This document shows positions 37,993-57,387 of a stretch of DNA of 64,000 bases, piece after piece; within the stretch, counting starts at the first letter, position 1, and every line of letters starts with the position of its first letter. The notes beneath the pieces are model-generated. The model was not told where the DNA came from. It did no database searches and saw nothing but the letters and a program-made list of their open reading frames with translations. The position numbers and the translations under genes are program-made. Source of the DNA: Karstenula rhodostoma CBS 690.94 (taxonomy: Eukaryota; Ascomycota; Dothideomycetes; Pleosporales; Didymosphaeriaceae); contig MU001506.1 in assembly GCA_010093485.1 (NCBI GenBank), positions 1-64,000 of the forward strand, in the 5' to 3' direction.

Positions 37993-38808
37993 TTAGACGC
38001 AGTAAGCGCCGTCGATAAGAACTTTAATACCACTAATAATTAAGCTAGCCGGCTCTACAAGGAAGAGAGCCATATTGGCCATATCTAATGGCTCGACGAG
38101 ACGGCCAATGGGAATGGCTGCGCACTTTACTTTAATAATTTCGGCTAGAATAGGGCCATCTATAATACTAGTAAACTTATTTAGTAAGGGTGTATTGCTA
38201 GAGGTTAGGTAGATAGTATTAAACCTCAGCTAATCTTTAGTAAACTTAAGAGCCATTAACTTTATTATAGATAAGACACCGGCCTTAGTTGTGTTATACT
38301 ATATTTGGGTAGCACCTGGTCTGATGGCGTTCTTACTAGAGATAATAACCGTGAAGCCAGGACTATTCTTCTTTATCTCTGGAATTAGAACTTTAGAAGT
38401 AAGGTATATACTCTTTATATTAACGTTAAATAGGTATTCGAATTCCTCGATGGTCACTTTAATGCCCGACTTGTTGGGATACGACCAGCCGGTATTGTGT
38501 ACGACGATAGATAGAGCGCTACTAAATTTAGTAATTAATATTTTAAGCTTACGTTATAATTAGTACGATTCGGCGTAATATTACTAGAATTAATATACCG
38601 CCTTCTTCCAACTCGCCTCCTCTGTAACGTTGGCCTTAATTTGATACGCTTGTTGCTCTGTATAGCCATCGACTGGGCCATCGGTTGCCTGCAAGTCTAA
38701 GCCGAGAACGACAGCTCCTTCCCGGACGAAAGTTTCGAGGATTCCTCGTCTAAAGCCCTGAGTGGACCCTGAAACGAGTGTAACTTTTCCTTCGAGACGA
38801 CCAGGTAT
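37993..38808 (-). pseudogene. RIP-inactivated short-chain dehydrogenase/reductase
   Basis: Read through its stops, this is a 271-residue SDR of the FabG-like classical family in a single frame. It opens with a GKVTLVSGSTQGF cofactor loop, followed by LGLDLQ, an NTGW motif (normally NAG), a YNTTK match to the YxxxK catalytic motif, and a C-terminal LIISGIKVLIDGAY. Several in-frame stops fit CAA/CAG to TAA/TAG or TGG to TAG, clustered after residue 70. The apparent start codon is ATA at 38808-38806, exactly what RIP makes from ATG. The 5' half is better preserved than the 3' half, in line with mutation fading away from the repeat block. The substrate is unknown. Confidence 0.87.
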
Positions 38809-39742
38809 GATAACAGAACTTGGCGGCTGCCGCTTAATCGAAGTTGTGCAAAGTGCAAAGATGGTGAGAAATTGATGGTAGAATAAGTCGACTAATGTGG
38901 GAGGCTATGTGCTATTAATTTTCACGAGCTCCTTAAATATCTCTAAATATCCTGATCGGAGGCGCTTTCTTAACAGCAATTCCAATGATGTTGTGCTCCT
39001 ATGTAACGACATCGGCTTCAGTAGCTCGGGTCGGAGACTTACCCCACTTTATCAGTCTTCGATGCCGATGGTATACATATTAGACGTGTATCTCGGTTTG
39101 CGACGGCTTTTCATCCGCTGTATCTGTACGCATCCGCCCACGATTTCCATTATAATTCCGATCGGACGGAAACAGCGCTGATTGGAGCGGGTGCCTAAAT
39201 CTCCGTCTGAGCTTAGGGAGGTTAAGTCACCACGTTGCGTTCTGGTTAATGGGCCGAGGTGACCTATATTCGCATTGCCCTGATATCTCTTAAAGCCTGT
39301 CCTAAGCTGTCTCTGCGCTTCTTTCACAGGGCGCCTTTTACCATCAGTAATGTTATCCAGGGTCCTTGGACTGAACGGCCTGGCTGCTCACCGCCGCTCA
39401 GTTGCCATCATTCAGCGCCGATTTTAATCGAGCTCGACCAACTCCAACCAGCTCTCTCCGTTCGCTTAACGGATTGCAGCCACAAGAAACGGTATTTCAA
39501 GCAGCAGAAGGACCGTGTATGTCGTAGCGGGCTCGACCATTACCATCGGGCTCTAGGGTTTGAGTCGACGCCGGAGCGATTATACCGATGATCCACGAGA
39601 TGTGAAAGCACTTTCCACTGTGCCTTTTGGCAAGCTTTGCTTAGGCTGGATGTAAGCGTAACGCGGGCGCTCCAATCGACAAAAAGAGGCTGATAGACTA
39701 TATAGTGCTTTCGCTTTCTGCTTATTGTCCACGTGGGTCGAT
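38809..39742. promoter_or_regulatory. Intergenic region, SDR ghost / PRODH-2 divergent promoter
   Basis: Normal-GC sequence between two genes that diverge. Toward PRODH-2 there is a CCAAT box at 39672-39676 and a TATATAG element at 39699-39705, 38 bases before the ATG at 39743. A palindromic CCGATCGG at 39158-39165 has the everted CGG half-sites often bound by Zn2Cys6 proteins. I see no convincing gene in this 930 bp. Confidence 0.45.
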
Positions 39743-41188
39743 ATGAGCGAATCTTTCTACAACACCATCTCTGAGATCCCCATAATACGTTCACTGTCGA
39801 ACGCCTTTATCTTGCGAACGTTCTTTAACCAATTTCTTGGCGGCGAAACCGTTGAAGACTGTATCCCGAAGATCGAAAACTTGCGCGCAAGGCAGATAGC
39901 CACCCTACTAGGGTATAATATTGAGGCTGAGCTTGACGGCTTAAGCAAAGATCCTCAACTGATCTTGAGATAAACCGAACATGTGCTCTCCTCAATCGAC
40001 GCTTAAGCTAGGCTAGCAAAGCAGTATTGGCCGGATACTAGCACTACAAGCGGCGACAATCGCTTTTGGGTCCGTATTAAAGTTACTGGTCTTCTTCCCC
40101 ATCCAGTCGCTTTATACCATGGTTCAAATGCGATTTTAAGGTACAGGGAGATCAAAGGACTGGATTAAGATGTGCCACTACCGGGCCTGCCACAGGACGG
40201 CGACTGGGAGGCAGCTTTGAGTGGGCAAGGTGTTACAGACTCAGACCGCGAGCAATTATCAAGTCTCAGGGCAACGTTGGAAACAATTGCCAGCAAAGCT
40301 CGAGACAATAACGTTCGTATTGTCATTGATGCCGAATAATCATGGTACCAGCCAGTTATCGATGCTCTTACAGACGAGCTTATGCAGAAGTATAATACCC
40401 TAGACGGGCCAGCTACTTGCATCGCCTCCTTCCAAGCCTATCTTCGCCGACACCCAGCTCTTATTGACCAACAGATTCGTCGCGCAGAGGTAAAAGGCTA
40501 CAAATTGCTTTTTAAGCAGGTGCGAGGCGCGTACATGGTCACAGAGGCCAGCCGCCATCGCAGCGAAGGGGGGCAAGGGGAAAGCCCCGTGTGGCCGACA
40601 AAAGAAGCCACGGATGCAAGCTTCAACTATGGAATCGAGAAGACCTTTGAAACTGTGGCTGCTCAGGTGCGCGAAACCGGTAAGTCGAGAATCGGTGCTG
40701 TTTTTGCGACCCACAACTCCATCAGCATTGATCTGGGAATATCGTTATTCGAGAAGTATGGATTGGCAGAGCGTATAGCCGATAGCAATAAACTCCTTAT
40801 TCGCAAGGAAGCTGCAGGTAGCATTGCCTTTGCTCAGTTATATGGTGAGTCGTATCATTTTTCAGTGTAGATACAGAAGGATGTGGCTGACGCTGAGAGC
40901 ACTAGGTATGAAGGACGATCTGACCAACAGAATCACTGGCACTGTCGACGCCGAAGGTGGATATCCACTTGTTTTCAAGGCAAGTGGAATTGCGACCATG
41001 GATTCTTGCTTCTGCTGACTGATTTGACTAAGTCTATGAGTTACGGTGAGCTGAAAGAATGCCTGCCTTTCTTGGCGAGGCGAGCCACTGAGAACAAAGC
41101 TATACTAGAGGGGAGGGGAGGAGCAGCAGCCGAAAGGGTGAGACTCGGACGTGAGATTCGCAGGCGTCTTTTGCCTTGGAAGTTTTGA
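39743..41188 (+). pseudogene. Second proline/hydroxyproline dehydrogenase, nonsense-mutated
   Basis: FAD-dependent proline dehydrogenase paralogue (PRODH-2), 443 codons read through, which would oxidise (hydroxy)proline to a pyrroline carboxylate. Exons are 39743-40844, 40906-40979 and 41033-41188. Intron 1 is GT-AG; intron 2 appears to be GC-AG (GCAAGT donor). One frame is kept throughout, but TAA interrupts it at 39971, 40004, 40166 and 40337. All four fit CAA to TAA; the last replaces Gln in the family motif IDAEQ. Other motifs survive: VRGAYM, AQLYGM and RRATEN. The residue after VFK (codon 393) is Ser, where proline-preferring enzymes have Tyr. There is no obvious mitochondrial presequence. 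It lies 0.9 kb from the RIPed block, so RIP leakage is the likely cause. Readthrough or sequence error is less likely given four identical-type changes. Confidence 0.88.
40980..41032 (+). other. Probable GC-AG intron in PRODH-2
   Basis: A 53 bp gap is needed to join VFK to SMSYGELKE in frame. The 5' boundary is AAG|GCAAGT, which matches the usual GC-AG intron consensus, and the 3' end is GACTAAG. A RIP mutation (C to T) could not turn a GT donor into GC, so the GC is probably original. Confidence 0.6.
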
Positions 41189-41797
41189 AACCATTCTCTA
41201 GATTTGTAGTATCCTATTGTAGACGGAAGGCAATGTTCAAGATCCTCTAGTGTACTTAAACCGTACTGTTACCGTCTTGTCCATCGGAAATATAAACCAA
41301 TCTCAACCACCGATAGCACAGATGATTGTTGCATTATTCGTGCTTCAATACGGCTATCTCTCCCCAGTCGAGTGCGACCAAAATGGTCACTCGTCTCCAC
41401 AGATTGGCACTACTGTGTAGGTCCGCGATAATCTCCGCTGCAAGTGGCAGGGTCGGTCCGGCTAGGGTTAGCGTCATCGGTCATCGGTCATCGGGCCCGG
41501 AGGCCGGATTGAGGCCCACTGAAGAACGACATGTGGGCGAAGCCAAACCGGACGCGAAGCGCGTACGGTAGGCTTTCCGGGGAAATTAACCCTGTGGGGT
41601 TGCAAACATTTGCCCTTGATCACATACTCACCGATATCGCCCTCCGGCTGTACGCGGTATTGCAGGCAACCGTTTCGTCATGGCCGCAGATTTCCGAAGT
41701 AAGCTCAGCGACTGATCGGTGAACTTAAGTAAAATGCTAGACAGTCGCTGTCAACTATCTTGCTGTACCTTTGATTGGAACCAAACTCCTGCTTGAT
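41189..41797 (+). promoter_or_regulatory. Promoter region of P5CDH-2 with CGG half-site cluster
   Basis: Intergenic 609 bp. At 41474-41494 the heptamer TCATCGG is repeated three times in tandem, followed directly by CCGGAGGCCGG at 41497-41507. CGG/CCGG half-sites with short spacing are the usual targets of Zn2Cys6 activators such as the proline regulators PrnA and Put3, so the cluster regulator at 50837 is a candidate binder. This is inference from motif only. Confidence 0.45.
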
Positions 41798-43537
41798 ATG
41801 ACTCTTGCAACTATCGCACAATACCCGGAGCCTGAGAATGCCGCAGGCGTAAGCGCTACGTGTACATGCTTGGGTCGCATCGAAGAAAGCTGACTTGATC
41901 TCTAGCTCTCGTACGCTCCCGGCACCGCGGAACGAAAAGAATTGTTGCGGGCTCTGAGCGAGCTGGAGAAAACCACGACGGAGATTCCCAGTATCATCAA
42001 TGGCGAAAGAATTTACTCGAATCACAAGAGTGCGCAAACCAACCCTTGGAACTGTCACGCACAACCGTTGGCGGAATACCACGAAGTAACCTGCAAAATG
42101 GTTGAGGAACAGGCGATTCCTGGTGCGCTCGAGGCAAGAAAGAAATGGGCCAACATGGCATTCAGCCAGCGCGCAGCCATCTACAAGCGAGCGGCCCTAC
42201 TGGTGCAGACCAAATACAGGTATCAACTCATGGCTGCGACCATGATAGGACAGGGCAAGACTTGCGGACAAGCCGACGGTGACTGTATCACTGAGGTGGT
42301 CGACACACTGAACTTTCACGTCTACTTTTGCCATCAATTATACCAACAGCAGCCGCTCAAACAGTCTGACTCGGCATATAACAGCCTCGATTATCGTCCT
42401 CTGGAAGGTTTCGTCCTGGCCATCTCACCCTTCAACTTCACCGCTTTGGGTTGCCATATCGCGTTCACACCCGCTATTTTGGGCAACGTCGTGCTTTGGA
42501 AACCATCCCCAATGGCCGTGCTTTCGAATTACATTCTCTATCAGATCATGGAAGAGGCCGGTTTGCCCCCTGGTGTCATCCAGTTCCTACCCGTTGCAGA
42601 CCCTACACTAGTAGTTGAGCCTGCCCTAGCCAACTCTCACTTTTGCGGTCTCCACTATACCGGTTCATCGGCAGTTTTGAGAAGTCTCTGCACTCAGATC
42701 GGTGTCAACACGTCTACATACAAGACGTTCCCGCGCGTTGTTGGTGAGAGTGGAGGAAAGAATTTCCACTTGATTCATAACTCCTGCAAAGATGACGTCG
42801 ACTGGATGGCTTCGGCGGCCGTCCGTTCCGCATTCGAATTCCAAGGGCAGAAGTGCAGCGCATTATCTCGACTGTTTGTCCCTAAGTCAATGTGGGAGCA
42901 AGGAGACTTACGAAAGGCTCTGATCCGGGAAGCTGAGAAGATGACACATGGTGATGACGTAAAGCAGATTCACCATCCACTGGGTCCGATGGTGTCTCAA
43001 TCCGCGTTTGAGCGATTCAATGACTATGTATCTCGGGCCAAGGCCGATGGTCATGAACTCCTATTTGGAGGCAATACAGACAGCAGCAAAGGTTTCTTCG
43101 TACAGCCTGCGATATTCGAGGTGCATGAAAGCGGCCGTAGTGGGGAGATCGACTTGATGACCCAAGAAATTTTTGGGCCCTTGATTGCCGTACAGCCGTA
43201 CGATGATGCCTCCCCAACCGGATTCAAAGATGGGTGCGATCTCATCAACACGACTACCGAATATGGCTTAGCCGGATCTGTCTTCGCACGCGATAGGGCA
43301 GCCGTGCAAGTTGCAAACGAGATACTAAGAGATGCCGTTGGTATGTTCTGCATCAACGACAAGTGTACGGGTGCGGTGATTGGGGCACAGCCATTTGGAG
43401 GAGCCAGGTCGAGCGGGACGAACGATAAGGCGAACTCGGTCAACGTGCTCCTTCGCTTTTCTAGCCTTCGGTGTGTGAAGGACTCTTTTGCAAGCGGAAG
43501 TAGCACATTAAGTGCATGTCATAAACCTGAACCGTGA
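41798..43537 (+). CDS. Delta-1-pyrroline-5-carboxylate dehydrogenase paralogue (P5CDH-2)
   Basis: NAD-dependent aldehyde dehydrogenase (ALDH4 type) that oxidises glutamate semialdehyde, or its 4-hydroxy form, to (4-hydroxy)glutamate. It has two exons, 41798-41848 and 41906-43537, for 560 residues. The splice joins AAG to LSYAPGTAER in frame and the intron has a GCTGAC branch site. The frame is complete: SPFNFTA, catalytic Glu298 in VVGESGGKN, catalytic Cys334 in QGQKCSA, and a PFGGARSSGTNDKA signature. Glu-to-Cys spacing is 36, against 34 in P5CDH-1, because of a two-residue insertion. Unlike P5CDH-1 it has no basic N-terminal presequence (starts MTLATIAQYPEPEN), so a cytosolic location is possible. 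It lies head-to-tail behind the dead PRODH-2, 610 bp away. Substrate specificity cannot be told from sequence. Confidence 0.92.
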
Positions 43538-43739
43538 TAGGCCTAGCATAAAAGATACATTCAATCTACCCACTATGACTCGTGCGAATTAGTGTACCAC
43601 GGCTGCGGGATGCTTCGCCAATTAAAATCTGTCTGCCTCGGACTCGAAATCCGAAGTCAATAGGGCCATGTTTCCTGCGTGTTGCATGTCTTAAATATAT
43701 AACGTCCCGGTTTGATACCTCAATCACACTCACGCAACC
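43538..43739 (+). promoter_or_regulatory. Aldolase promoter with TATA element
   Basis: A 202 bp gap after P5CDH-2. TATATAA at 43696-43702 lies about 40 bases before the aldolase ATG at 43740. The ATG context ACCATGG is a strong initiation context. Confidence 0.55.
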
Positions 43740-44655
43740 ATGGCTGCCGCAAATATTCGCCTCAAAACTCTGCTTCAACAAGGGAAGCCTGCCTTTTCTA
43801 CCTTCATCGCACTGAAAGGCATGCGGACAGCTCAAATTGTCGGCCACACAGGATTGGATGTGAGTCGTTCTGCGGTGCTACGAGTTTTAGCTTACGAGCA
43901 AAGGCGGTCATCATAGATCGAGAGCACGGGAACATTGACGACTCCGACATGCACGACATGGTCAGTGCGGTCCGCAACGCCGGGGCATCTCCAATCGTAC
44001 GCGTTCGTGGCCCCGACGGTCCTTTGATTAAAAGGGCTCTGGACACAGGTGCACAGTAAATTGCTCAAAGGTCTTGTATCCCTAGCGCTGACCCGATACC
44101 AGTGGTCTTCTGGTGCCCATGGTGAACACAGCAGATGAAGCTCGTTCCGTCGTGGCGTCTGCCAAATTTCCGCCGATCGGCTTTCGAGGGCAAGGCTCAG
44201 CTTTTCCGTGTTTCGAGCTGGGCCTGGAAACGCCAGCCGAGTACGTCGCAAAAGCCAACGATAGCGTCCTTACCATGATCCAAATCGAGTCTGTCGCCGG
44301 CCTTAACAATATCGAAGAGATTTGCCAGGTCAACGGCATTGGTCCGTAAACATGTGCAAGCTTTTGCAGGCAGCATAATACTGAACCGTCGATAGATTTG
44401 ATATTCATTGGACCTAACGATCTGTCGTTGGCACTTCTGGGTTATGTCCCGCCAAAACGTTCCGAAAAGATTTTCATTGACGCAATCGAAACGATACGGG
44501 CTACGGCAACAAAACACGGGAAGAAGGTCGGGATTCTTGTTACTAATGGCGTCGAAGCACGAGAGGCAAAGGGGTTTGACCTGATCGCGATAGGTACAGA
44601 TATCCGGGCTTTGCAGGCTTGGTTCGCTGCACAGCTGCAAGATGCACGAAGCTAG
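43740..44655 (+). CDS. HpcH/HpaI-family class II 4-hydroxy-2-oxoacid aldolase
   Basis: Metal-dependent aldolase of the HpcH/HpaI (citrate lyase beta-like) family, 256 residues. These enzymes cleave 4-hydroxy-2-oxo acids to pyruvate plus an aldehyde. Exons are 43740-43859, 43904-44055, 44103-44341 and 44396-44655; introns are 44-54 bp, the last with a weak GTCCGT donor. The known active-site set lines up: His48 in REHGN (HpcH His45), Arg73 in PIVRV (Arg70), Glu153 in IQIES and Asp179 in GPNDLSL (metal ligands, Glu149 and Asp175), plus AHGLLVPMVNTA. Next to proline/P5C dehydrogenases and an aminotransferase, the natural substrate could be 4-hydroxy-2-oxoglutarate from hydroxyproline, giving pyruvate and glyoxylate. 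That assignment is inferred from context; the family also acts on aromatic-pathway intermediates. Confidence 0.9.
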
Positions 44656-45718
44656 ATGTTACCGGGTCTATATCAAATGCAGAAATCGCAACTCAATACC
44701 CAGATCTAGACTGCAGCAACCGCACCCGCTCTCATGATGCGTTGATAATTTTAATTGTGGCGGCAAAGATCATGAAATATGGTCGTAACGTCTTCGGCGT
44801 GCACTTGCTCTCTGCCAACTACCTCGATTATTGCTTGCTCCATCGACTGCGCTGCGGCCATGACATGCGGAGCATCATCGAGAATCACATGCTGAATTGG
44901 TGCCAGCGTGCACGCAAAAATGCAGGCTATCGGTTTTCTTAAAGTCTTCTTGGTTTAAGGTAAAAAAAAAAAACTGATCGACCTTTGTTAGTGCTCCGCT
45001 CGTAGATTTGGGGGCTATGGTGAAATTCTTCACAATGTTTCTCTTAGGGCCTGGCGCAAAGTACCATTTGAAAATGGGCAGGCTGACATCATCCATTTGG
45101 GTGTCAGCATGGTATCAGCATATAGAATACTGCTCACTTTTCTTCAAGTTGTATCCTTCATTCGTTTTGTGTCGGCAGGTACAGTGAGACATTTGATGTC
45201 TAATCCGTAGTTGAGTACAGCTTGCATCGCCCCTTGCGTTGAGTCATCTTCAGTTGCGTTGGGGTTCGGCAGATGACGATGCCGGAGAAAGGTGATACGA
45301 ATCGATTCTTTGTTTCTTTCCAGATGATCCGTTTCATGTGGTCGCCGTTCAGTTCCATCACTAGCATTTGAGCATATGCTTTATCTTCCCCCAATACTGC
45401 AATTCGATATTGGGGAGTGACACAATTCGTGGCCTTCCTCATTACTCACTTTGACAACCCTGTGTTGCTCCAATTAATATGCAGAGCGCCGTCGGCGTCC
45501 CCGGACCCAGCCAGCTACGGTCACGGTGACTGAACAGTTCGCGTGACAACTCCTTGTCTCAGCCGCTCACCTATCATCAGTCGCTGCTTTGTTCGAAACC
45601 AAATTTATGAGCCCTTAATAGCGAGGTATGCACTCGTTGGTCATCACCATCATGCGATTATATGCGAATTATACGTGTGAGCAGATTGTGTCTATGTACG
45701 TAATGATTACTGATCTAC
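44656..45718. other. 1.06 kb between convergent genes, no firm gene
   Basis: This separates the convergent aldolase and P5CDH-1 genes. Short open stretches on the minus strand at 44875-45096 and 45200-45442 have some protein-like composition (for example FKWYFAPGPKR), but they have no recognisable domain and no convincing splice link. A 12-base poly-A run lies at about 44962. I do not call a gene. Confidence 0.5.
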
Positions 45719-47532
45719 TTAAACCTCATTGGAAATGTACTGAACTTCTTCGAGAGGAACAAAGTCCTCCTTGATGGTTTGCACACTAACGTAACGACCG
45801 ATCAAGCCCACGGTGCCAGTCTTGTCGTTCGTGCCACTGTCACGACTGCCACCGAATGGTTGTTGCCCTACAATAGATCCAGTGCACTTGGTGTTCAGAT
45901 ACAAGTTGCCAGCAGCATGCTTCAACACTTTCTGTGCCTGACGGGACGCAACTGGATCTTTTGCGAAGATACTACCAGTCAAGGCATAGCGCGAGGTCTT
46001 GTTGATCAGGTCCAAAGTCGTCTCGTAGTCAGCGTCCTTGTAGACGTACACTCCGAAGATAGGGCCGAATAACTCGCGCTCCATGATGTCGTGGTTAGGG
46101 TTCGTTGACTTGTAAATTGTGGGGTGGACGAAGAATCCCTGCTCCTTGCTGGCCTTGCCGCCGACGATGAGCTCTAACTCTGGGTCCGACTTGGCTGACT
46201 CGATCACGCCGTTCAGCTTGTCGAAGGCCCTCTCGTGGATGACCGAGTTGACGAAGTTGCCATGGTCTTCTGGTGCGCCAACCTTCATCTTGTCGGTTTC
46301 TTCGACAATGTACTTCTTGAATTCTGGCCATGCTGACTCGGCAACATAGACACGAGAGCATGCGGAACATTTCTGTCCTTGATACTCGAAAGCAGCACGC
46401 AAAGTATTGTAGGCTGCACTCCTGATGTTGGCTGATCGGTGGATCAGATGCCAGTTCTTACCACCGGTCTCACCGACCACACGCGGGTACGAGTTCAGTC
46501 TTCCTTCTGATGTAGCCTTGCCAACTTTTCCTTGTAGTTCCTTGAAAGTAGCCGTCGATCCAATGAAGGTAAGACAGGCGAACTCCGGCCGTGCCAACAC
46601 TGTGTCAGTGACTACTCGAGGGTCACCTGGGACGAACTGGACGACATCAGGCGGTAGACCAGCTTCGAGCAGGATCTGATAGAGTATCCAGCTGGCATGT
46701 AGAGCGGAATCCGAGGGCTTCCAAATTACAACGTTGCCAAGCATAGATGCAGGTCCGACCAGGGTTGCACCAAGAGCAGTGAAATTGAATGGCGTAATGG
46801 AGTACACGAAGCCTTCTAAAGGTCGGTACTCCATCCTGTTCCATACACCCTTATCCGTCACCTTAGGCTGCTGTGAGAACAATTCCTCACAAGCCTTGAC
46901 GTACTGTCGGAAGAAGTCTACCGTCTCCACGGATGCATCAATCTCGGCCTGCCAGATATTCTTACCCTGGCCGAGCATCGTAGCTGCTAGCAGGTTATAT
47001 CTGTACTTTCCGGTTATAAGCTCGCAAGCTCTTAGAAATATCGATGCTCTGTCTTCGAAAGGCATTGCTTCCCATGCTGGCTTGGCTGCAAGAGCAGCAT
47101 CAATGGCAGCATCCACTTGTTCAGGTGAAGCTTGAGCATATTTGGCAACAACATCAGCATGCTTGGATGGGTTGATTTGACTCGCTGTCAAGGAGTCGTT
47201 GATCTTGGAACGATTAGCACATGTTGGCCTACAGGCCGTGGAATTTTACCTTTTTGCCTCCAACAGTAATGGGTATCTGCGCCGGTAGATCCTTCTTCAT
47301 GCGTTGGAAGGCCTGATCAAAATCGGTCCTCTCAGACGATCCTTTAGCGAATGTTTTCTGTCAATTTGTAAGCGTCGAGATCAAGACGGTTGAGGGGGCT
47401 GTCGCCACACACCACTGGTTCATTGGCAAAACGAGGAGCAATCCAGCGTGACATGCATCTTTGCTGCTTCGCAAGGGCAATGAAGTCTCGCTGTGGGGCC
47501 TTGATGGTACGAATATTTCGAACGGTCTGCAT
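45719..47532 (-). CDS. Mitochondrial delta-1-pyrroline-5-carboxylate dehydrogenase (P5CDH-1)
   Basis: NAD-dependent ALDH4-type enzyme converting P5C / glutamate semialdehyde to glutamate in the mitochondrial matrix, 570 residues. Minus-strand exons are 47413-47532, 47250-47357 and 45719-47203, with introns of 55 and 46 bp that splice in phase 0 (EPV|KTFAKGS and VGGKK|INDSL). The first 40 residues are basic and free of acidic residues until NEPV (MQTVRNIRTIKAPQR), as in a mitochondrial presequence. Further motifs are TPFNFTA, catalytic Glu321 in VVGETGGKN, Cys355 in YQGQKCSA, and PFGGSRDSGTNDKTG. It is divergent from P5CR, with a shared 310 bp promoter. It is the likely housekeeping copy, while P5CDH-2 is its shorter-leader paralogue. 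Confidence 0.95.
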
Positions 47533-47842
47533 GATTGATACAAACTTCAGACTGTTCCAATGAGAAACGAATGAGCAATTTTACCTACTCTCTGTCAGAA
47601 CTCCGATCATTTTGGGGGCTTTTTCAACTGCTCAATGTCGAACTTCACGCCCGACGGTCGATCGGTTCGGGTGGGGTCTTCGGTCTCCAACCCCGACATC
47701 GCGCCAACAACGCGCTCGGAGTCCGCGTATGCTCAAGAGCGCGCACTCTCGGCATCGCAGAACGCAATAAGGGTTATTGTGCCTCGTCATTGGTATCCTC
47801 GGAAACAACGATCAGAGAGAGTCTGTTGTTAGCAAGCGCAAA
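47533..47842. promoter_or_regulatory. Divergent promoter between P5CDH-1 and P5C reductase
   Basis: 310 bp shared by two diverging pathway genes. It holds clustered CGG/CCG triplets around 47650-47720, including CGG-N9-CCG beginning at about 47680, close to the CGG-N10-CCG site of the yeast proline activator Put3. Co-regulation by the Zn2Cys6 protein encoded at 50837 is plausible but not shown. Confidence 0.4.
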
Positions 47843-48742
47843 ATGAGCAACATGAAACTAGGCATCCTAGGATGTGGTAAGTCGACCTCTACGTCATCGA
47901 AATGAAATGTTCCTGACTTATCAGGCACCATGGCAACGTGGATTGTCAAAAATATGCTGCGAAACACGTCTGAAGCATCGCGCGTCTCGAAAATTCTGGC
48001 GAGCGTGCGTACCGAGCGCTCGGCAGACCGATTACGTCATGAGCTTCGGGATCACAGCAAACGCATCGACATCCGCGTTCAAGACAATGTTGGAGTAGCT
48101 TCCGCATCAGACATGATCATGCTGGCATGCAAACCTTATCAAGTCCAAAAACTTTTGGCCGCCCAAGGCCTTGCCGAAGCTTTGCATACAAAGGGTATCA
48201 TCAGCATATTAGCTGGTATCACCCCTAGGCAGATACGCGAAACCCTCACGAAGGATAGAGCAGATGGGAACTACGATATCATCAGGGCTGGTCCAAACGT
48301 TGGGGCTCGTGTAGGCGAGTGTATGACGGTGATTTCGGAGCCTCACGATGTATCAACCAAATTGGTCGAAGACACCACATGGCTCTTTGAACAGATCGGG
48401 CGTGTGACTGAGGTGGTTGAGACAGCGTACGATTCTGCCTTTGTCATGGTGGGCTCTGCGTACTCGCTTCCTACGGTGGCCATCGAAGGGCTCATTGATG
48501 GAGCAGTACAGCAAGGCCTTTCGCGTGCTGCCGCGACTGACATCACAGTCCAGTGTCTTAAGGGTTTGACGAAGATGCTCGAAAATGGTGATCAGGCAGC
48601 AGATATACGCAACTCAATTTGTACTCCCAACAGCGTCACAATCGCTGGTTACCTTGAGCTTGAGCGGCGAGCCGTGCGAGCTGCTTTCGCAGATTCTTTG
48701 CGAGTTGCTATCGAGCGCACAAAAAGTTATGGGAAGAAATAG
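47843..48742 (+). CDS. Pyrroline-5-carboxylate reductase-like protein
   Basis: NAD(P)H-dependent reductase of the P5CR family (P5C to proline), 283 residues. Exons are 47843-47876 and 47925-48742; the 48 bp intron splits the Gly codon of the dinucleotide motif LGILGCG|TMATW, as in many Rossmann N-termini. The C-terminal dimer/active-site region is recognisable: GSAYSLPTVAIEGLIDGAV, GLSRAAA, and a tail ending ERTKSYGKK. Two hallmark motifs are changed: the usual MPN is GPN (RAGPNVGA), and SPGGTT is TPNSVT (ICTPNSVTIAG). The fold is therefore clear, but substrate or activity may differ; reduction of a hydroxylated pyrroline carboxylate is one possibility. Its 3' end faces PRODH-1 at 53 bp. No signal or membrane segment is seen. 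Confidence 0.87.
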
Positions 48743-48795
48743 TCATGTAATCTAAATGAACATCGAGCTTCTCATACATATTCATCTTATTGCAT

Positions 48796-50163
48796 CTATC
48801 CTGTGCCCATTATCCGTGCCTTGAGCTCCCTCTTTGCCTGCGCATACCCGTCCTGCAAGCGCTCTGCCGCGCCTGCGTTTTCGTTCGCTCTTCGCATCAG
48901 GAAATTTATACACTCACGTACCGTGCCCCAGTTCACGCACTTAAATACATGTTGAACTGCCTCATGCTTCTCTTTGCTGTCTTTTTCATGATCCTCGATC
49001 ATAGACAATAGGTCACCACTAATGTGGTCTGCCATGCCGTATAGCTGGCCGAATTCCAGTGTTCCTGGATTTGTGCCTTGCCCAGACAACTTGCGATGTA
49101 GGGCTGATGCTTTTCGGATGGAGTCGGCGTTGTGTCCGGCGAGAAACAGTTTTAGACCGGGGAAGTTAGGTTTAGTGATATCGTCAAATGAACGCTGCAG
49201 GAGATCACGAGCTATGCCGTTGTATGACTTATCCGTGTCAGGCTTTGTGTCATGGATACGGTCACGTTCCTCTTGAAAGATGTAGGCCCCTCTGACCAAT
49301 TTCACACCAAGGATCCATCCCTCCTTCTGAGCTAGTTCCAGATGGCTTCGGATCACACCACGTGTGGCCTTGAGATACGCTTGATAGGTGTTGAGGATGA
49401 GGGCATCGCCGTCGCGGTTGTGCTCGCGCATAAGATCAACAGTCCAACGATCGATCGTTGCTTGATACACTTGCTGCTCTGCATCGACCAGAAGGTAGCT
49501 TCCTTGAGCTTTTGCCTGTCGACAAAGCTGGTTGAGTGCGTCCCAGAATTGCTTGGGTGGCTCCTTCCCTGCAGTCAAAGCACTTGCAACGCTCCCACCT
49601 GCTCCAGTGTACTTGATGCCAATGTAGTCTCCCGCACCAATCGCCGAGAGTGTCTTGAGGTTTCCATCCAGCCACTGCTGAATGTGTTCAGCAGAGACAT
49701 CAGCGAGACCATCCGCATCAGCAAGATCGTGGGCGATGATCTCACGGGCATAATTGAGGATAACGCCTTTGAAGCCAACCGACTTGATGTCGGCTATGGT
49801 TCGTTTGATATCACTGGATTCATGACCAGCGCAGAAGTGATTGTATATCCCAGCACGCAGTGCCCTGTTCAACAGCAGGTTCTTGTCAGGATCCAAGAAC
49901 GGTTGACGGGAGTTGGCGATCTTTTCAAGCACTGCAATGCCGAACCGAGACAAAGCAGGACTGGAAAATAGGCGACTCAACAAGAGTGTACGAAGAACTG
50001 CAGGTGTCGACAGTCGTGCCAATGGTCGAGAGGATGGTTGAGCAGGAGTCGGGGCTGTGTTGCCAGCTGCGGGGCTTGAAGCGATACGTCGACGAGGGTG
50101 CAGTCGAGAGACTGACGGAGCCAAACGACGAAGCGTCTGGGTCTGGATAACAGTGTAGGCCAT
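48796..50163 (-). CDS. Mitochondrial proline dehydrogenase (PRODH-1)
   Basis: FAD-linked proline oxidase of the inner mitochondrial membrane, 455 residues, intronless. The long N-terminus is rich in Arg, Ser, Ala and Pro with no acidic residue for about 70 residues, as expected for a mitochondrial presequence. Motifs run in order: FLDPDKNLLLNRAL, FCAGH, GFKGVILNYAREI, LLVDAEQQVYQ, KLVRGAYIFQEE, LEFGQLYGMADHI and FLMRRANENAG (RRxxEN). In the segment corresponding to KYVPYG of proline-preferring enzymes it reads FKCVNWG, so Cys409 replaces the active-site Tyr (PutA Tyr540) that disfavours hydroxyproline. It is therefore a candidate hydroxyproline-tolerant enzyme and presumably the working partner for P5CDH-1 and P5CDH-2 now that PRODH-2 is broken. 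It is convergent with P5CR and divergent from the regulator gene. Confidence 0.94.
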   Translation of the reverse strand: MAYTVIQTQTLRRLAPSVSRLHPRRRIASSPAAGNTAPTPAQPSSRPLARLSTPAVLRTLLLSRLFSSPALSRFGIAVLEKIANSRQPFLDPDKNLLLNRALRAGIYNHFCAGHESSDIKRTIADIKSVGFKGVILNYAREIIAHDLADADGLADVSAEHIQQWLDGNLKTLSAIGAGDYIGIKYTGAGGSVASALTAGKEPPKQFWDALNQLCRQAKAQGSYLLVDAEQQVYQATIDRWTVDLMREHNRDGDALILNTYQAYLKATRGVIRSHLELAQKEGWILGVKLVRGAYIFQEERDRIHDTKPDTDKSYNGIARDLLQRSFDDITKPNFPGLKLFLAGHNADSIRKASALHRKLSGQGTNPGTLEFGQLYGMADHISGDLLSMIEDHEKDSKEKHEAVQHVFKCVNWGTVRECINFLMRRANENAGAAERLQDGYAQAKRELKARIMGTG

Positions 50164-50836
50164 GTTTTCGGTATTTTGTAAATAGTATAGTTAGTATTGA
50201 AAGTAAAGTGCGATGGTATGAGGTCGATTCACACGCTGCCAGCGGGGTTTTATCCAAGGCAGGCATTACTCACGCAGTTCTCGCCCGAAGGCGCTATCTG
50301 CTAGGCCATCATGTAGTCAGCTGGCATTATCACCGATACTTGAAAAGTTAAGTGTAGGATTTTGCTGCATTTGTGCGCATACCAACCAGCGACTAATTGG
50401 GTTAATATTCATATAACACTTAGCAGATACTAAAAGACAGGCTTTCGGAAATGCTTAGGCCGTTCAACTGCTAAGCGGTGTATTGCAGGTGTCAAGCACG
50501 AGACTACAGGAGAAGAGAAACAGCTCAATGCCCCTAGCACGCTGTCCTCGAACATCGACAACGTTCCTACACATTCAAAGACCTCAGTGCTGTCAAGAAT
50601 ACCAAGCTCGGACTGTGTACGACTCGCGGGTGTAGGTGATGATGAAAGCACGTGAGTGAGATAAGCGGACCCCTCATTTGGAGCATACTACCCCACAGAT
50701 AACGTATCTCCGCACCTTGACATTGCCATCGGATCCGAGCAGTGGTTATTTAGGTCAATTGCCGTGCTCTGTTCGGTCTCTAACAGCGAACAGCTCACCT
50801 CACCACAACCTTACCGCTCTTAACCACCTGCCGAGG
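50164..50836. promoter_or_regulatory. Divergent promoter between PRODH-1 and Zn2Cys6 regulator
   Basis: 673 bp shared by the regulator and PRODH-1. There are scattered CGG/CCG triplets, including CGG-N11-CCG beginning near 50446 and the tight palindrome CGGATCCG near 50730. I see no gene. An open frame running upstream of the regulator ATG lacks any domain and is treated as 5' leader. Confidence 0.4.
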
Positions 50837-53323
50837 ATGGATGACAACGTGTCAGAGCCACTAGAGATCCCTAAGACACCGCCTCTACGCATCCCAAGAC
50901 GGACGCCTCGAGCGTAAGTGCCGATAGCTTAGTTAGATGCAAAGCTCAATACGTCGCAGCTGTAAGCAATGCAGGGCCTCGAAGATCAAGTGTTCCGGCA
51001 ATCGGCCTTGCGAACGGTGCGCTCGCCGTCGCGATTCATGTATCTTCCCCAGCGATGAGCCCCACGTTTCGATACCTGAGCGATATTTGCGTGACCTTCA
51101 GCGTCGCGTTTCGCAGCTGCAATCGACGGAGGGGCAGCAAGGCCAACAGCCGCCGCAAAAGGACAACGGAGAGGAAACCGAGCTTAGCATGTCATTAGGC
51201 GACACGCCCGAGGCACCGGTAATGCCTCAAGCCATGGCCGATCAGTCGCTCTCCAACGCCGACCAGCCACAGCCAATCACTGATCAATCGTTCGCCAATA
51301 CCGAGCAGTTGCAGCCAATCACCGATCAACCGTTCGCCAATACCGAGCAGTCGCAGCCAATCACCGAACCGTTCGCAGCCGTTGTCCAAGACTCCGCCAC
51401 AGCGGCAGCGGCGCCACCCACACCAATCTCGCTGAGACGGGCATCTCAAGGTCAGCCACAGCCACAGTCACAGCCACAGCAACGAAGGGTGGATTCTTCA
51501 GCCACAGATACGTTACCTCAGTATAATCCATTGGTGTCGCCGACTCTTTCATACGTGAGGGAGATAGGCGGTCGACCGCGCTATCTGGGACCAACATCAA
51601 CATGGTCCTTCTGTCGGCGTGCGTTGTCGTTGTTGGAAGGCCATATTCCTTCACCCAGTGGCTTGACTGCGCCATTGAACACGGATGGTACTGCATTTCG
51701 CTTGGTCTGGGAGCCCAAGGCTGCGGTAGACGTGTCTGATCTCAAAGTTCTCCCCCCAAAGGATTATGCTCTGCATCTGTACAACACCTGCCGATTTCAC
51801 TTCGGCGAGCTGTTTGGCATAGTCGACGAAGCAAGCTTCTTCGTGCATTTCGAGGCCTTTCACAAAGATGGCTTGCGCGTAGCACAACGGGAGCGTTTAT
51901 GGTTCTGCTCGTATCTACTCCTCATGGCTTTCGGAAAAGCTTTTTTGGCCTCCAGTCACATTTCATTTGCCACTCGGGCGATGGCTCTGCTTCCAGATCC
52001 TACGCACATGCACGATGCAGGTATCCCAGGTATCGAACTTCTTGCACTGGTGGCACTGTACTTCCAGTCGATCGATATGCGGTCAACGTGCTATCAGTAT
52101 ATTGGACAAGCTTTACGACTCGCCTTCCTTGAAGGTATCCACACTCACGTACCCGACGATGTCGTAAGTCCTGCATTTGCGAGCCGCTGCAACATGTTGT
52201 GGTGGACAGTTTATGTCCTTGACCAGGAGATGTCGGCGAATAATGGCTGTCCAAATGCTATACCTGAAGGAGCAGCTACTTTGGATCTACCTTCTGACAG
52301 ATGGCCTACTCTTTCAGCCAAGGCTTTAACTCTTCGCATTCGTCTTTCTAAACTTACTGCAAGCTTATGTGGTAGTAAGTGCATACTCTGCGTATTCATT
52401 GTGATACCAATAAGCTAACACCTGCTTAGCGGTATACAGCAACGACGTCAGCCTACAAAGCTTCTTTATCCCTAACACAGCCTCGTTCCTGCTGCAGCTA
52501 GCTGAAGTCTCGCGCGAGCTGGATCAGCTGATGTCTGGATTCAGTAACAGCTTACAAGGGGATCTTCCGCAAAGCCTTAGACACATTGCCATGTCCTATC
52601 AACACGTAAGTATCCATGTGACTGATCGTAGAAAAAAAACTAACGTCACCGCAGTGCATTATTCTTGCAACGCGCCCTTTGGTAATGTGGCTCTTGATAC
52701 AGAATCTGCAACCAGTATCTTCGCAACAGCCAACAGGTCCAGTTGCTGCTCTATTGCAAACATCCACAGAATCTGCAATGTCCATTATACTCATGTTGAG
52801 GGCCCTTGCGGAGCAGGACATGCTCGAATGTTTCCTGCCCTTTCAGCTCGAGTACGCATTCTCAGCTGCGATGCTACTATCGCTTACGAAGGCAATTCTT
52901 CCTGACTATGTACCTGACATGCATTGGTCTCGCTCAGTCCATATTATATTCGATCAGATGATTACCAAGAACAATGTCGTGGCAAGACTACGAAAAATCG
53001 AGATGCAAGAACTCGATGCTAAGCTGGCAGCTGTGCACAAGCTCCACTTTCCAGCTCCAGAGTCACTTCCAACACAAAGCATTGCTCATACCCAGAACGA
53101 TACGCGTAGCCATATAGCAACGGGGCTTTATACAGATAAAGATGTATTAAATCCGCAGGCTTTTGACCAGGACCTGGCATCGGACGACCTCCAACAGACT
53201 TGGGACATCGACTTTGCAGGCATGGACGATGCACTCTTCAACAATCATGATCAGATGCTCGATTTGGCGGAGCAGTTCCAGACAGGGGACATGGATCCTT
53301 CCATTATCTTCGGATTGGGATGA
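50837..53323 (+). CDS. Zn2Cys6 transcription factor, candidate cluster regulator
   Basis: Fungal binuclear-cluster activator, 778 residues. Exons are 50837-50913, 50960-52374, 52430-52605 and 52655-53323, with introns of 46, 55 and 49 bp and clear CTAAC-type branch sites in the last two. The first splice completes the zinc cluster RACKQCRASKIKC with C-x2-C-x6-C-x5-C-x2-C-x6-C spacing, near residues 26-52. A Gln/Pro-rich linker with an imperfect 14-15-residue repeat (51250-51372) follows. Then comes a fungal-specific TF homology domain (FGIVDEASFFVHF, LWFCSYLLLMAFGKAF, CNMLWWTVYVLDQE), and an acidic tail. Its position between PRODH-1 and the aminotransferase suggests it controls this cluster, as PrnA does in Aspergillus, but orthology to PrnA or Put3 is not established. 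It converges on the aminotransferase with only 3 bp between stop codons. Confidence 0.92.
51250..51372 (+). repeat. In-frame tandem repeat in regulator linker
   Basis: Three imperfect units of about 42-45 bp encode variants of TDQPFANTEQSQPI. They keep frame and encode a Gln/Asn/Pro-rich spacer between the zinc cluster and the regulatory domain; unit number is likely to vary between strains. Confidence 0.7.
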
Positions 53324-53326
53324 TGA

Positions 53327-54762
53327 CTACATGCTGCTCTTGATAACGTCATTGAATGCCTCAGCTACACGTGTTATATTCGTCGCGTTAAGCCCGCTGA
53401 CGTTGATCCGTCCGTTGCCTGGCAAGTACACATGGTGCTTGTCAATTAGTGATCGCGTCTGAGCCGCCGTGAGCCCAGTCCACGAGAATAAACCGTTCTC
53501 CTTCAAAATGTGATCCCAGCCATCGACTGTACCAGTACGCGGCGAGGGTGTCTTGAAATATTCTGTCATCTGACGGTGGAATTCTTTCCTCAGGCTCGCG
53601 ATCCCCTGCCGTATTGTACCGAGCTCTGTCTGCCACCTTGCCTGCAGGGCAGGATTAGACATCAGGATATTGGCCAGCTCTGCTCCATAAGCCGGCGCCG
53701 ACGATACCTCCCACCGCATCAACGAGCGCAGTTGGTCAAGAACATTATTTGCAATAGAAGGGGTGGCACACAAAACATGTAGCGCACCGACTCGCTCCGA
53801 GTATAAGCCTGCATTTTTGGAAAACGACTGGCAGACAAGTATGTCGATATTTCTTTCAGTGAAGTGGCGGACCGCCCATGCGTCTTCCGGTGCACTATGT
53901 CCAAGTCCCTGGTATGCGGTATCGAAGAAGGCGAAGTGACCTTTGGCTTGCATCGCTTCTGCGATCTGCGTCCACTGACTCATAGAATAGTCACGACCTG
54001 TGGGGTTGTGGCAGCAACCTTGAAACACAAAGATACTTCGGTCCGGCGCGCTGTTTAGCGCGGTCAACACGCTATCCAAATCGATGTCTTGAGAAGTGTC
54101 CAGATATGGGTACGTTTCTATACTGGTCTCGAATCCTGCGTGCTTGAACAGCGGATGGTAGTTTCCCCAGGTCGGTGTACCAATATGGACAGACGGTGGG
54201 GTTGAAGATGATGTTGAAGACCAGTACTTCTTCAGAAACACGGCACCAATTCGACATGCGCCCGTGCCTGCCACGGTCTGGATGGAAGCAATTCTACCGG
54301 CTTTGATGGTTTCGCACTGATCTCCGAACATTAATCGCGCGGCGTTCTTTCTGAACGCTTCATTTCCGGTTGTCGGACGATACTATAACATCGTCAGTCC
54401 AAGCTTTGCTTTGACCATCCTGATCAGCGTACATCATGGCTCAAATGTAACTCTTCAAGTTGCCTCTTTGCTTCCTTGACAACCGCGAGCTCGTAACAGG
54501 CGCCCTGCTGGTCGCGAAGCACGCCAGCACCGAGGTCAACTTTCAAGGGATATGCATCCTGATCGTACTCCTTTTTGAGAACAAACATTGGGTCCACAGG
54601 TGCAGCCGGTACATCTGAGAAGCTGTTTGGCTTTGTTCGCGTATTCGACATATTGTGTAATCTTCGATGGCGTACGCTCTTCCCGAGATTTTTGGGGATT
54701 AGGTTTAATCGAGTGGATAATCTTATAAATACAGACGCAGCGTGGTAGCCAGTGGATAACAT
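53327..54762 (-). CDS. Aspartate aminotransferase (class I, PLP), two possible starts
   Basis: Pyridoxal-phosphate enzyme exchanging amino groups between aspartate or (4-hydroxy)glutamate and 2-oxo acids. Exon 2 is 53327-54382, the intron is 54383-54432 (50 bp), and exon 1 is 54433-54651 from the inner ATG or 54433-54762 from the outer ATG. The inner start gives 424 residues with a normal FSDVPAAPVDPMF opening. The outer in-frame start adds 37 residues rich in Arg, Lys, Ser and Leu with no acidic residue (MLSTGYHAASVFIRLSTR), a good mitochondrial presequence. Core motifs are CCHNPTGRDY, FFDTAYQGLGH and the PLP lysine in SFSKNAG (Lys262 or Lys299), with GRINVSG near the end. In this cluster it would convert 4-hydroxyglutamate to 4-hydroxy-2-oxoglutarate, or glutamate to 2-oxoglutarate. 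Confidence 0.92.
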
Positions 54763-55401
54763 TATAAAAGACGTGCAATCCTTAACAGTGGCTGGAGTAT
54801 AGCAAACATTAATCTCGGTATTAAATATAGATATTATGTCGCATTCGGAGCGGAAGCCGAGGAACGGCTTCCATAAGCGAGGGGCAGATGTGACGGTAGT
54901 ACCGAACAGTAATAGTTATAAGTGGTCAGAAAGAGACTTAGACACCAGGAATAAGAACCTATTAGAATATAAGTATATAGATAGGATTTATAGGAATAAA
55001 ATTAATAATAAGCTAGATATATTTTTATAGTACTACACCCTTTTTAGTTAGCCTATATATAGACGCTAGGCGCGCCTTAGCCACTTTCTTAGTTCCTATA
55101 TATTAGTAAAGTATAATATCTTATTATTCTCCTTACTTTATAGATTTACCCCACCTTATAGTAATTATCTATAATATATATATATATATATTATATATAT
55201 TATATAATTGAATTTATAAATTTATAAACCTAATAAATAATAAATCTACTAAAAACCTTATAGTAAAAGAAAAATATTATATAGTAGTAGAATCTTAAAG
55301 TAATCCCTCTTACTTAGAAAGTGTTACTATTCTTAATATATAGAAGAATATATATTATATAATAAAAATAATTTTTAAATATACTAGATATTAAAATATA
55401 A
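54763..55401. other. AT-rich RIP-like island
   Basis: A compositional island between the aminotransferase and the CorA-like gene. The first 150 bases are near normal; the remainder is TpA-rich with few CpA. It includes a TA-rich simple repeat at about 55166-55207 and one surviving CGCTAGGCGCGCC stretch at about 55062. It is probably the RIPed remnant of a small insertion. No gene is recognised. Confidence 0.6.
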
Positions 55402-57387
55402 CTACTGGTGCCTATTTATATCTCTTATCCTACGCGACTTCGCCTTATCCCTTCGCCGCCCAAAACGTTTTAAGCTACGCCATACTCTTTGCCGCCTACG
55501 CATTATTAGTATGGTCGATACTTCCCAGAACAATTATCACTCACATTAAAATCAAGATCATGCCCGTGGTGACCGGTATACAAAGCCACCAGAAGTACGC
55601 TTCGCTGTTCTTCAACGTTGGAAATTCCTCAAAGTTCATGCCGAAGTATCCTGCCAAGAACGTCATAGGCAAGAACAATATCGTGACAAAGGTAAGTTGC
55701 TTCATGCTCTCATTCTGATATGCTCCCATTGTATTGAAGATTAACGAGATCATACGGTCCGCCGATCGCCGCATTCGGTCCAAGGACTCCAGCACCATAA
55801 TGCAGTGGTCTTCGACGTCGCTGAAGTAGGTATGTGCCAGCGTGGTTATTGTGATGGATCCCGTGGATGGATCCTTAGGAGCAAAAGGAGGCGGAGAGTT
55901 GGCGATAGGCGAGGATGAAGAATCTTGAGAAGACTCGGCCGTCTGTATGAGCGCTTTGGAGTTGTGTTGTCGCAGGGCGTTTACTAGACCTGAAATTGGA
56001 GCGATCTGAGACCGGAGGAGAGAGAGTTCGGAGGTGAGTATGTAGCTGCGGGGCGCGTCAGTGACTGGACGATAGCGTGACTGCGTTTTGGGGGAACAAA
56101 CAGAGCTTTTGAATGGGAAATATGTGGTTCCATCAAAACCTCCAGCTCCAGCTCTGCGATGCTTTCTTCGTATGCGGTCGCAATAGGCATAGTAAGGTCA
56201 ACGATACCATCGATGATTGCATGCATGACCATGCTGGCATCACCACTCCTTCGCAGAACAGTCTCGGAAGACTGCAGGCGTTTCAGGATTGGCCCCTCAA
56301 TCACATCGGCAGAATGTTCAAAGAATGAGACAACGGTATTGTCGCTCTGGAGGAAGATCGATACTTGCTCAACAGAGACCATAAGACCTTTCGGCGTGAG
56401 AGTAGAATGCGCTTCCATGTACTTGGTTCTCTCATCATCCATATCATGTCGAAAGCCTTGAAGTGTTTTCACAGATTTCTGGTATTCAGCGGGAACCTGT
56501 TTCTCCCGAGAGGCCGGACTGCGTATGCTAGCATCTTCCCGGTGGATCGGTGGTGATCTGCTGGCATCCTCCGATTTCCGGATCAGTCGCTGTAAAGTCA
56601 ACAGAACTATTCTTGGTCAGTTTGCCCTCATACGTTGACAGGTGAATCTCTACCAAATACATGCTCTGGGAACCAGTCTGCTTTTGTGCGGTTTTTTGTA
56701 TGTAAGAGATCTTCAATAGCAAGGCTGTGCAGCTTTTGTTTTTCCCCAATCATGCGTACTACGTCCCAGCTCAAACCGTTCACAGAATACCTATTTTCAG
56801 GAGCACGTAGTCAGCGTGTGTCACAAGAACGACACCTTAGAAAAAGATCTCACCAGCGGCAGGTGACCCAGTCTTCGCGAGGCTTCGCGAGGAAGTCAGC
56901 CAGGGTCGAGTTTGTGAGCTCGTACTTCTCTATACGATCGACGGAAAAGTCCACAACTGTTATCTGTGACTGAACTATTGTTTCAGCAAGATCCCATAAA
57001 ACGACAGATGGTCGAGGTCAATGTCGTCCATTGGGTGGCAAGTATGCCAACAGCGAGTTTACATACCTCGACTTTCTTCTGCCTCCATTCCGGCCATGCA
57101 TCCTCATTTTGGATGTTGATGCCAGGTTCGCCGCCTGCCACAGGCCCACATGAAGCTTGGAGGCTGATAGATCTTGAGGGTTGTTCATGTGTCTTTAAAC
57201 CGGCATGTCTCCTCTCCCCAACATGTTGCTGTACTGTAGATGCCCTACCGGGAGCTAAAAATCGGCGTACCGAAGATGGATAGCTCTGGATGACAGGAAA
57301 CGCGAGCGCATTGCCTGGAGCTTTGCAGGGATTCCAAGTCGCGGCCACAGAACGCGCCACGCGCCATGAACATGGTGCCAAAAGCAT
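55402..57387 (-). CDS. CorA-like divalent-cation (magnesium) transporter
   Basis: Membrane channel of the CorA / fungal Mg2+ transporter superfamily, about 555 residues by my model. Minus-strand exons are 57067-57387, 56854-56963, 56654-56790, 56102-56606, 55545-56045 and 55402-55495. All junctions keep frame; for example, KKVE|ITVVDFS and CRW|YSVNGLSWD join correctly. The cytosolic domain ends in DRMRRSADRMISLIFN, then TM1 (TFVTILFLPMTFLAGYF) with the family GMN signature at residues 493-495, the short loop, and TM2 (WWLCIPVTTGMILIL). The last exon, supported by a TACTAAT branch site, adds a very basic tail of about 30 residues and borders the AT-rich island, so the C-terminus may have been altered by it. 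The first 107 residues are the least certain part. It is not part of the proline pathway. Confidence 0.8.

Follow-up and report, generated by a model that had tools for sequence, protein, structure and literature searches.

The first 64,000 nucleotides of contig MU001506.1 from the pleosporalean fungus Karstenula rhodostoma CBS 690.94 (hereafter, the window) contain what we read, from sequence, as a cluster of genes for the catabolism of 4-hydroxyproline, a reading to which we assign a probability of about three in four. Open genes represent each of the four enzyme classes that lead to pyruvate and glyoxylate, namely hydroxyproline oxidase (HPOX), pyrroline-5-carboxylate (P5C) dehydrogenase (P5CDH), aspartate aminotransferase (AspAT), and an aldolase, with the first step covered by a single proline dehydrogenase (PRODH) gene, PRODH2. 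This reading draws mostly on a second locus in the same genome, which repeats the gene set with a different aldolase; equal contig sizes and one joined gene model also suggest partial linkage in other fungi. A first-pass annotation of the window had proposed a complete hydroxyproline-to-pyruvate/glyoxylate gene set, and this proposal stands in part, but one of the dehydrogenase genes that it counted is dead and the cluster's own permease has been destroyed.

Pfam searches place the two P5CDHs, the aldolase, the aminotransferase, the P5C reductase (P5CR), and the regulator where they had first been reported. PRODH2 (positions 48796 to 50163, minus strand; Pro_dh, 2e-49), the proposed hydroxyproline oxidase, is an open frame of 455 amino acids (aa). 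The P5CDHs are P5CDH1 (41798 to 43537, plus strand; exons 41798-41848 and 41906-43537) and P5CDH2 (45719 to 47532, minus strand; exons 47532-47413, 47357-47250, and 47203-45719), both open (Aldedh, 7e-87 and 8e-102). The aspartate-type aminotransferase (AAT; 53327 to 54651, minus strand; exons 54651-54433 and 54382-53327; 424 aa) matches Aminotran_1_2 at 3e-58, and the HpcH/HpaI aldolase (43740 to 44655, plus strand; 256 aa) is assembled from exons 43740-43859, 43904-44055, 44103-44341, and 44396-44655. Completing the set are a divergent P5CR (47843 to 48742, plus strand; exons 47843-47876 and 47925-48742; PF14748, P5CR_dimer, 8e-21) and a Zn2Cys6 regulator (50837 to 53323, plus strand; four exons; Zn_clus and Fungal_trans; 778 aa). 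Database proteins confirm the aldolase, AAT, and PRODH2 models only: the first two are identical over their full lengths to K. rhodostoma CBS 690.94 entries, and for PRODH2, the matching entry is that of the window protein itself.

From this content, we infer a substrate, reactions, compartments, and a mode of regulation. The permease, now dead in the window copy, would have taken up hydroxyproline, which a mitochondrial PRODH2 would oxidize to 3-hydroxy-pyrroline-5-carboxylate; P5CDH would convert the opened semialdehyde to 4-hydroxyglutamate, AAT would turn this into 4-hydroxy-2-oxoglutarate, and the HpcH/HpaI aldolase, acting via a metal-held pyruvate enolate, would release pyruvate and glyoxylate. 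The Zn2Cys6 protein is a candidate inducer-responsive activator, and the divergent P5CR may reduce surplus hydroxylated P5C back to hydroxyproline or deal in some other way with this reactive intermediate. PRODH2 and P5CDH2 would be mitochondrial and AAT and the aldolase cytosolic, judging from the N termini by eye and from the best matches of AAT, which are cytoplasmic enzymes. The N terminus of P5CDH2 resembles a mitochondrial presequence, and none is obvious by eye in P5CDH1, whose best PDB match is the mitochondrial P5C dehydrogenase 4oe4 (8e-138). Step by step, the enzyme classes are those of the animal mitochondrial pathway, which is described as reaching glyoxylate and pyruvate through HPOX, P5CDH, AspAT, and 4-hydroxy-2-oxoglutarate aldolase (HOGA) (PMC3188589). 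The window differs in that its genes are clustered and its last enzyme is of the HpcH/HpaI type instead of the Schiff-base HOGA, which has the dihydrodipicolinate synthase (DHDPS) fold.

The second locus occupies approximately positions 1,518,900 to 1,536,900 of another contig, C7 (the contig that begins with the window being C15), and encodes a P5CR, a PRODH, a DAO-type FAD oxidoreductase, a regulator, an AAT, a permease, a DHDPS-family enzyme, and a P5CDH whose start resembles a presequence. It therefore has the PRODH, P5CR, regulator, AAT, permease, and P5CDH in common with the window and differs in its DHDPS-fold aldolase, its single P5CDH, and the extra DAO-type oxidoreductase. Its regulator was recognized by Fungal_trans (1e-10) in one of the four pieces scanned and by a Zn2Cys6 motif seen by eye, and its permease is readable in open pieces. 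Identities between the two loci are 37% for PRODH2, 27% for P5CR, 44% for AAT, 46% for P5CDH2, and 39% for P5CDH1 (the C7 P5CDH being partial), and for the regulators, identity is 27 to 43% over three aligned pieces (tblastn, 1e-39). We regard the clusters as old paralogues and not as the result of a recent duplication.

Six-frame searches of the 44.3-Mb genome (29 contigs) yielded gene counts that are lower bounds, with side-by-side matches taken as exons of one gene. They returned four PRODH genes (five matches, pseudogene included; two on C15 and one each on C7 and C1), four P5CDH genes (the P5CDH2 query and three at at least 43% identity; two on C15 and one each on C7 and C5), three P5CR genes (three matches; C4, C7, and C15), and four AAT-like genes (seven matches; C15, C7, C23, and C6). 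The other matches among the 27 to P5CDH2 are aldehyde dehydrogenases at 25 to 34% identity. The C15 and C7 loci alone account for 3/4 of the PRODH genes, 3/4 of the P5CDH genes, 2/3 of the P5CR genes, and 2/4 of the AAT-like genes, and because most genome copies are concentrated in these two loci, chance is not a reasonable explanation of the gene set.

The two clusters fill the aldolase position with unrelated enzymes. The window aldolase is a member of HpcH/HpaI (PF03328, 62.6 bits against a cut-off of 25) and not of the HOGA-type DHDPS family; it has the His, Arg, Glu, and Asp motifs, whose catalytic roles we assume, and the structures closest to it are those of HpcH/HpaI aldolases, among them the hydroxyketoacid aldolase 6r62 (2e-39). 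Family and motifs are shared with the bacterial enzymes HpaI, GarL, YfaU, and 6r62; the genomic context is not. Among the best 120 of 856 aldolase matches, two of our own four motif patterns were present in 120/120, and 47/120 and 82/120 fitted the more stringent patterns for Arg and Glu, respectively; we draw nothing from these counts. The C7 enzyme does belong to the DHDPS family (PF00701), of which the genome has several other genes (nine matches), such that family alone is not specific. It matches 3qfe at 5e-139, a presumably fungal structure whose deposited name is “putative dihydrodipicolinate synthase family protein.” At one column, the C7 enzyme carries Asn, compared with Thr in the aligned dihydrodipicolinate synthase. 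In HOGA, Asn78 and Ser198 bind the substrate and Lys196 is the nucleophile (PMC3188589); the C7 Asn column would correspond to Asn78. That two unrelated pyruvate-type aldolases fill the same slot in two parallel clusters argues for a single shared reaction, and the simplest reading of the context is that both would split 4-hydroxy-2-oxoglutarate.

Linkage in other fungi was assessed from protein searches with the aldolase, PRODH2, and AAT (best 120 of 856, 569, and 1132 matches, respectively, to which the following statements refer) as the assignment of entries to contigs of equal size, compared by eye. For K. rhodostoma itself, whose cluster entries coincide in this way, C15 has 1,667,826 bases here versus 1,710,800 for the cluster-gene contig in the protein database, and C7 has 2,013,694 in both. 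Annulohypoxylon moriforme has an aldolase (71%) and an AAT (65%) that are both assigned to a 111,945-base contig, and Biscogniauxia marginata has a PRODH (67%) and an AAT (66%) that are both assigned to a 515,666-base contig; both species are Xylariales, which belong to a different class from K. rhodostoma. A PRODH (54%) and an AAT (60%) are also assigned to contigs of 16,664 bases, and a 648-aa protein model from Chaetothyriales joins AAT and P5CR, which are either neighbors in that fungus or truly fused. Other sources of aldolase matches, such as Hypocenomyce, Exophiala viscosa, and Meristemomyces, are absent from the PRODH2 and AAT lists of 120, and in Zasmidium cellare, the listed aldolase and PRODH matches are on contigs of different size. 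The top listed PRODH2 match after its own entry is from Nothophoma quercina (83% over 79%), and the distribution of the cluster looks patchy. Two PRODH matches bear the names “4-hydroxy-2-oxoglutarate aldolase” (Physcia stellaris) and “aspartate aminotransferase cytoplasmic” (Fusarium albosuccineum); the names may echo such gene neighborhoods, and we give them little weight. Conserved aldolase/AAT linkage was among the checks that the first-pass annotation had named for its proposal; by equal contig size, it is found in one relative, A. moriforme.

Several observations weigh against a hydroxyproline pathway. The external linkage is one of equal contig sizes, and the coincidence at 16,664 bases would be expected 0.12 times by chance among the 40 x 38 = 1520 pairs of short contigs (0.006 if only contigs of >10 kb are considered). 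In no relative among the best 120 matches per search do aldolase, AAT, and PRODH all coincide in contig size. By score, P5CDH2 is an ordinary P5C dehydrogenase (679 bits, over the cut-off of TIGR01236, for the large-exon frame only), and the C7 P5CR, at 195.7 bits, is one bit under the proC equivalog cut-off and need not be special. The window aldolase is far under the cut-offs of all four HpcH/HpaI NCBIfam models that it matches (HpaI, two GarL models, and rhamnonate aldolase), the best score being 164.8 bits for HpaI against a cut-off of 368.8, and in this it also differs from the bacterial enzymes. For the C7 aldolase, HOGA is a slightly poorer match than a dihydrodipicolinate synthase (7e-30) and YagE (5e-29), and the NCBIfam model that fits best is dapA, under cut-off; similarity does not single out HOGA. 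To these we add the residue at the PRODH column that corresponds to PutA Tyr540, where Cys, the residue of PRODH2, occurs in 109 of the best 120 of 569 PRODH matches (query included; 4 others have Tyr, 1 Val, and 1 Ala, and 5 are unreadable), including in proteins named Put1 or PrnD, several of which are from Aspergillus.

We located this column in both PRODH2 and PRODH1 by counting back 15 residues from the first of two arginines, identified by PutA numbering; human PRODH2 has a Ser at this position. PutA Tyr540 favors proline over hydroxyproline (according to a passage citing Ostrander 2009), and the corresponding residue is Cys in PRODH2 and the C7 PRODH, Ser in PRODH1, and Tyr in the lone PRODH on C1. 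Within the genome, the contrast of Cys or Ser with Tyr fits the hydroxyproline model. Because Cys is common among the listed relatives, however, it is no marker of hydroxyproline oxidases, and we rejected the column as proof of hydroxyproline specificity. A PRODH tree of 123 rows shows no clean split by column residue: the Cys group (110 rows) requires 10 changes versus 12.6 with shuffled labels (3 of 500 shuffles were as low), and the Tyr group (5 rows) requires 4 versus 5.0. The C1 and C7 sequences and PRODH1 are on long branches of this tree.

The frequency of Cys and the ordinary score of P5CDH2 would suit a prn-type proline-utilization cluster to which an aldolase and an AAT for some other substrate had been added, with hydroxyproline not a substrate at all, and permease, PRODH, P5CDH, and regulator are indeed the prn core. 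We consider this explanation quite unlikely: an AAT and a pyruvate-type aldolase are additions in both loci, with unrelated aldolases; AAT shares a contig (by equal size) with PRODH or aldolase in other fungi; and PRODH and P5CDH genes exist outside both clusters, on C1 and C5. Less probable still is that the window aldolase acts on sugar acids or 4-hydroxy-2-oxoheptanedioate and came to lie here by chance. Its only NCBIfam matches are to enzymes of those kinds, and there are seven HpcH/HpaI matches genome-wide, but all four models are far from reaching their cut-offs, we noticed no further genes of such pathways next to the aldolase, and the contig of its closest named relative is equal in size to that of the same fungus's cluster-type AAT.

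Two members of the proposed hydroxyproline cluster are damaged, and both lie at its left edge. A permease remnant (35679 to 37362, plus strand), a part of the cluster missing from the first-pass annotation, is detected by PF00324 (AA_permease, 3.7e-14 on 36403-36867) and by the C7 permease, which aligns with it in three pieces over 1.7 kb at 35 to 51% identity (tblastn, run without composition correction, which inflates its E value). It is heavily mutated by repeat-induced point mutation (RIP), with a TpA/ApT ratio of 1.58 in 36001-37000. A weak match of the C7 P5CR in the same AT-rich block, at approximately 31.6 to 32.0 kb (6e-5, also without composition correction), was treated as chance. 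Next to the block, PRODH1 (39743 to 41188, plus strand; PF01619, 113 bits) is where the earlier count of two proline/hydroxyproline dehydrogenases had put it, but this copy is a pseudogene: its single frame of 393 codons has four TAA interruptions and no frameshift in that stretch, and one stop directly follows the conserved DAE motif. We rejected PRODH1 as a working enzyme on account of these stops and also rejected the reading of TAA as an amino acid, P5CDH2 itself ending in TAA as a working stop. The overall RIP index of PRODH1 is not raised (composite RIP index [CRI], -0.47), and light leakage of RIP from the adjoining block may have caused the damage. Identity between PRODH1 and six other dehydrogenases (PRODH2, that of C7, and four more of the cluster type) is only 27 to 31%, and PRODH1 seems to stem from a distinct PRODH lineage. 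With the permease destroyed by RIP-like mutation and PRODH1 interrupted by stops, the window copy now lacks a transporter of its own and retains a single working dehydrogenase gene.

Such losses raise the question of whether the cluster is a decaying, nonfunctional relict, with the C7 locus doing the work, an explanation that is compatible with hydroxyproline catabolism as the original purpose. In this view, RIP at the contig end would already have taken both permease and PRODH1, with the remaining genes to follow, but the seven other genes are open, with normal indices (CRI, -0.55 to -0.86) and plausible splice sites, and C7 could supply the permease; we therefore judge a relict to be unlikely. 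Positions 1 to 38,000, at the contig end, are AT rich (18 to 26% GC per kb; approximately 21% for the block), and RIP indices are extreme up to 38,400 (TpA/ApT, 1.53 to 1.64; [CpA+TpG]/[ApC+GpT], 0.01 to 0.32). A transitional segment at 38,401-39,700 (47% GC; TpA/ApT, 1.01) leads to genes with normal dinucleotide indices beyond 39,700. A second AT-rich, RIP-like patch of approximately 0.5 kb (54,951 to 55,430; 20% GC) forms the right boundary, and the readable cluster thus occupies an island between two AT-rich, RIP-like regions. Its right-hand neighbor, a CorA-type transporter gene, is not counted as a member. GC skew is strong near 11 to 14 kb and 28 to 31 kb, inside the AT-rich block, and a search for at least three exact telomere repeats found none in the window.

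The window P5CR and P5CDH1 score under the cut-offs of their standard models. The spliced window P5CR scores 168.8 bits, clearly under the proC equivalog cut-off of 196.75, compared with 243.7 bits for the C4 P5CR, which passes even with its first exon missing; spliced P5CDH1 scores 602.9 bits, just under the TIGR01236 cut-off of 613.6. In what we take to be the substrate-carboxylate loop, the P5CRs read TPNSVT in the window, SPEGCT in C7, and TPGGCT in C4. A fuller reading of the genome is that it has two paralogous hydroxyproline clusters whose last step was recruited twice from unrelated families (the Schiff-base DHDPS fold in C7 and the metal-dependent HpcH/HpaI type in the window), that the window P5CR has adapted to hydroxylated P5C, and that the window version is shared patchily with Xylariales. 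As a whole, we hold this combination tentatively, at somewhat short of even odds.

Hydroxyproline is plentiful in collagen and in plant cell-wall proteins. The suggestion that the cluster belongs to a host-associated fungus found no support in the evidence; K. rhodostoma is, we assume, a twig saprobe. The Aspergillus nidulans prn cluster comprises prnB, prnD, prnC, prnA, and prnX, and its clustering of a permease with catabolic genes is the only case known to the authors of a review (PMC5983819), in the main text of which “aldolase,” “aminotransferase,” and “hydroxy-” occur nowhere. The earlier statement that prn lacks an aldolase and an aminotransferase agrees with that text. The window resembles prn in its adjacent permease (here, a dead remnant), proline oxidase, P5CDH, and regulator; it differs in that prn is described as including prnX, and the window would encode a four-step route to pyruvate and glyoxylate, plus a P5CR. 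Among other fungi, Aspergillus fumigatus is described as growing slowly on hydroxyproline as the sole nitrogen source, with 180 of 634 genes preferentially expressed on it being subtelomeric (PMC2526178), and Candida Put3 as not being induced by hydroxyproline compounds (PMC10621835); elsewhere, hydroxyproline serves as a readout of collagen (PMC12333218). Among the openly licensed papers listed by our literature searches, no title or abstract opening describes a fungal hydroxyproline gene set or cluster.

What appears to be new, then, is a prn-like cluster that would cover the complete hydroxyproline pathway and exists in two versions ending in unrelated enzymes. The window would provide a concrete gene set for the use of hydroxyproline by fungi. 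It also leads to a predicted reaction for a clade of fungal HpcH/HpaI aldolases, and 3qfe, a close homologue of the C7 aldolase, may have a function as a 4-hydroxy-2-oxoglutarate aldolase.

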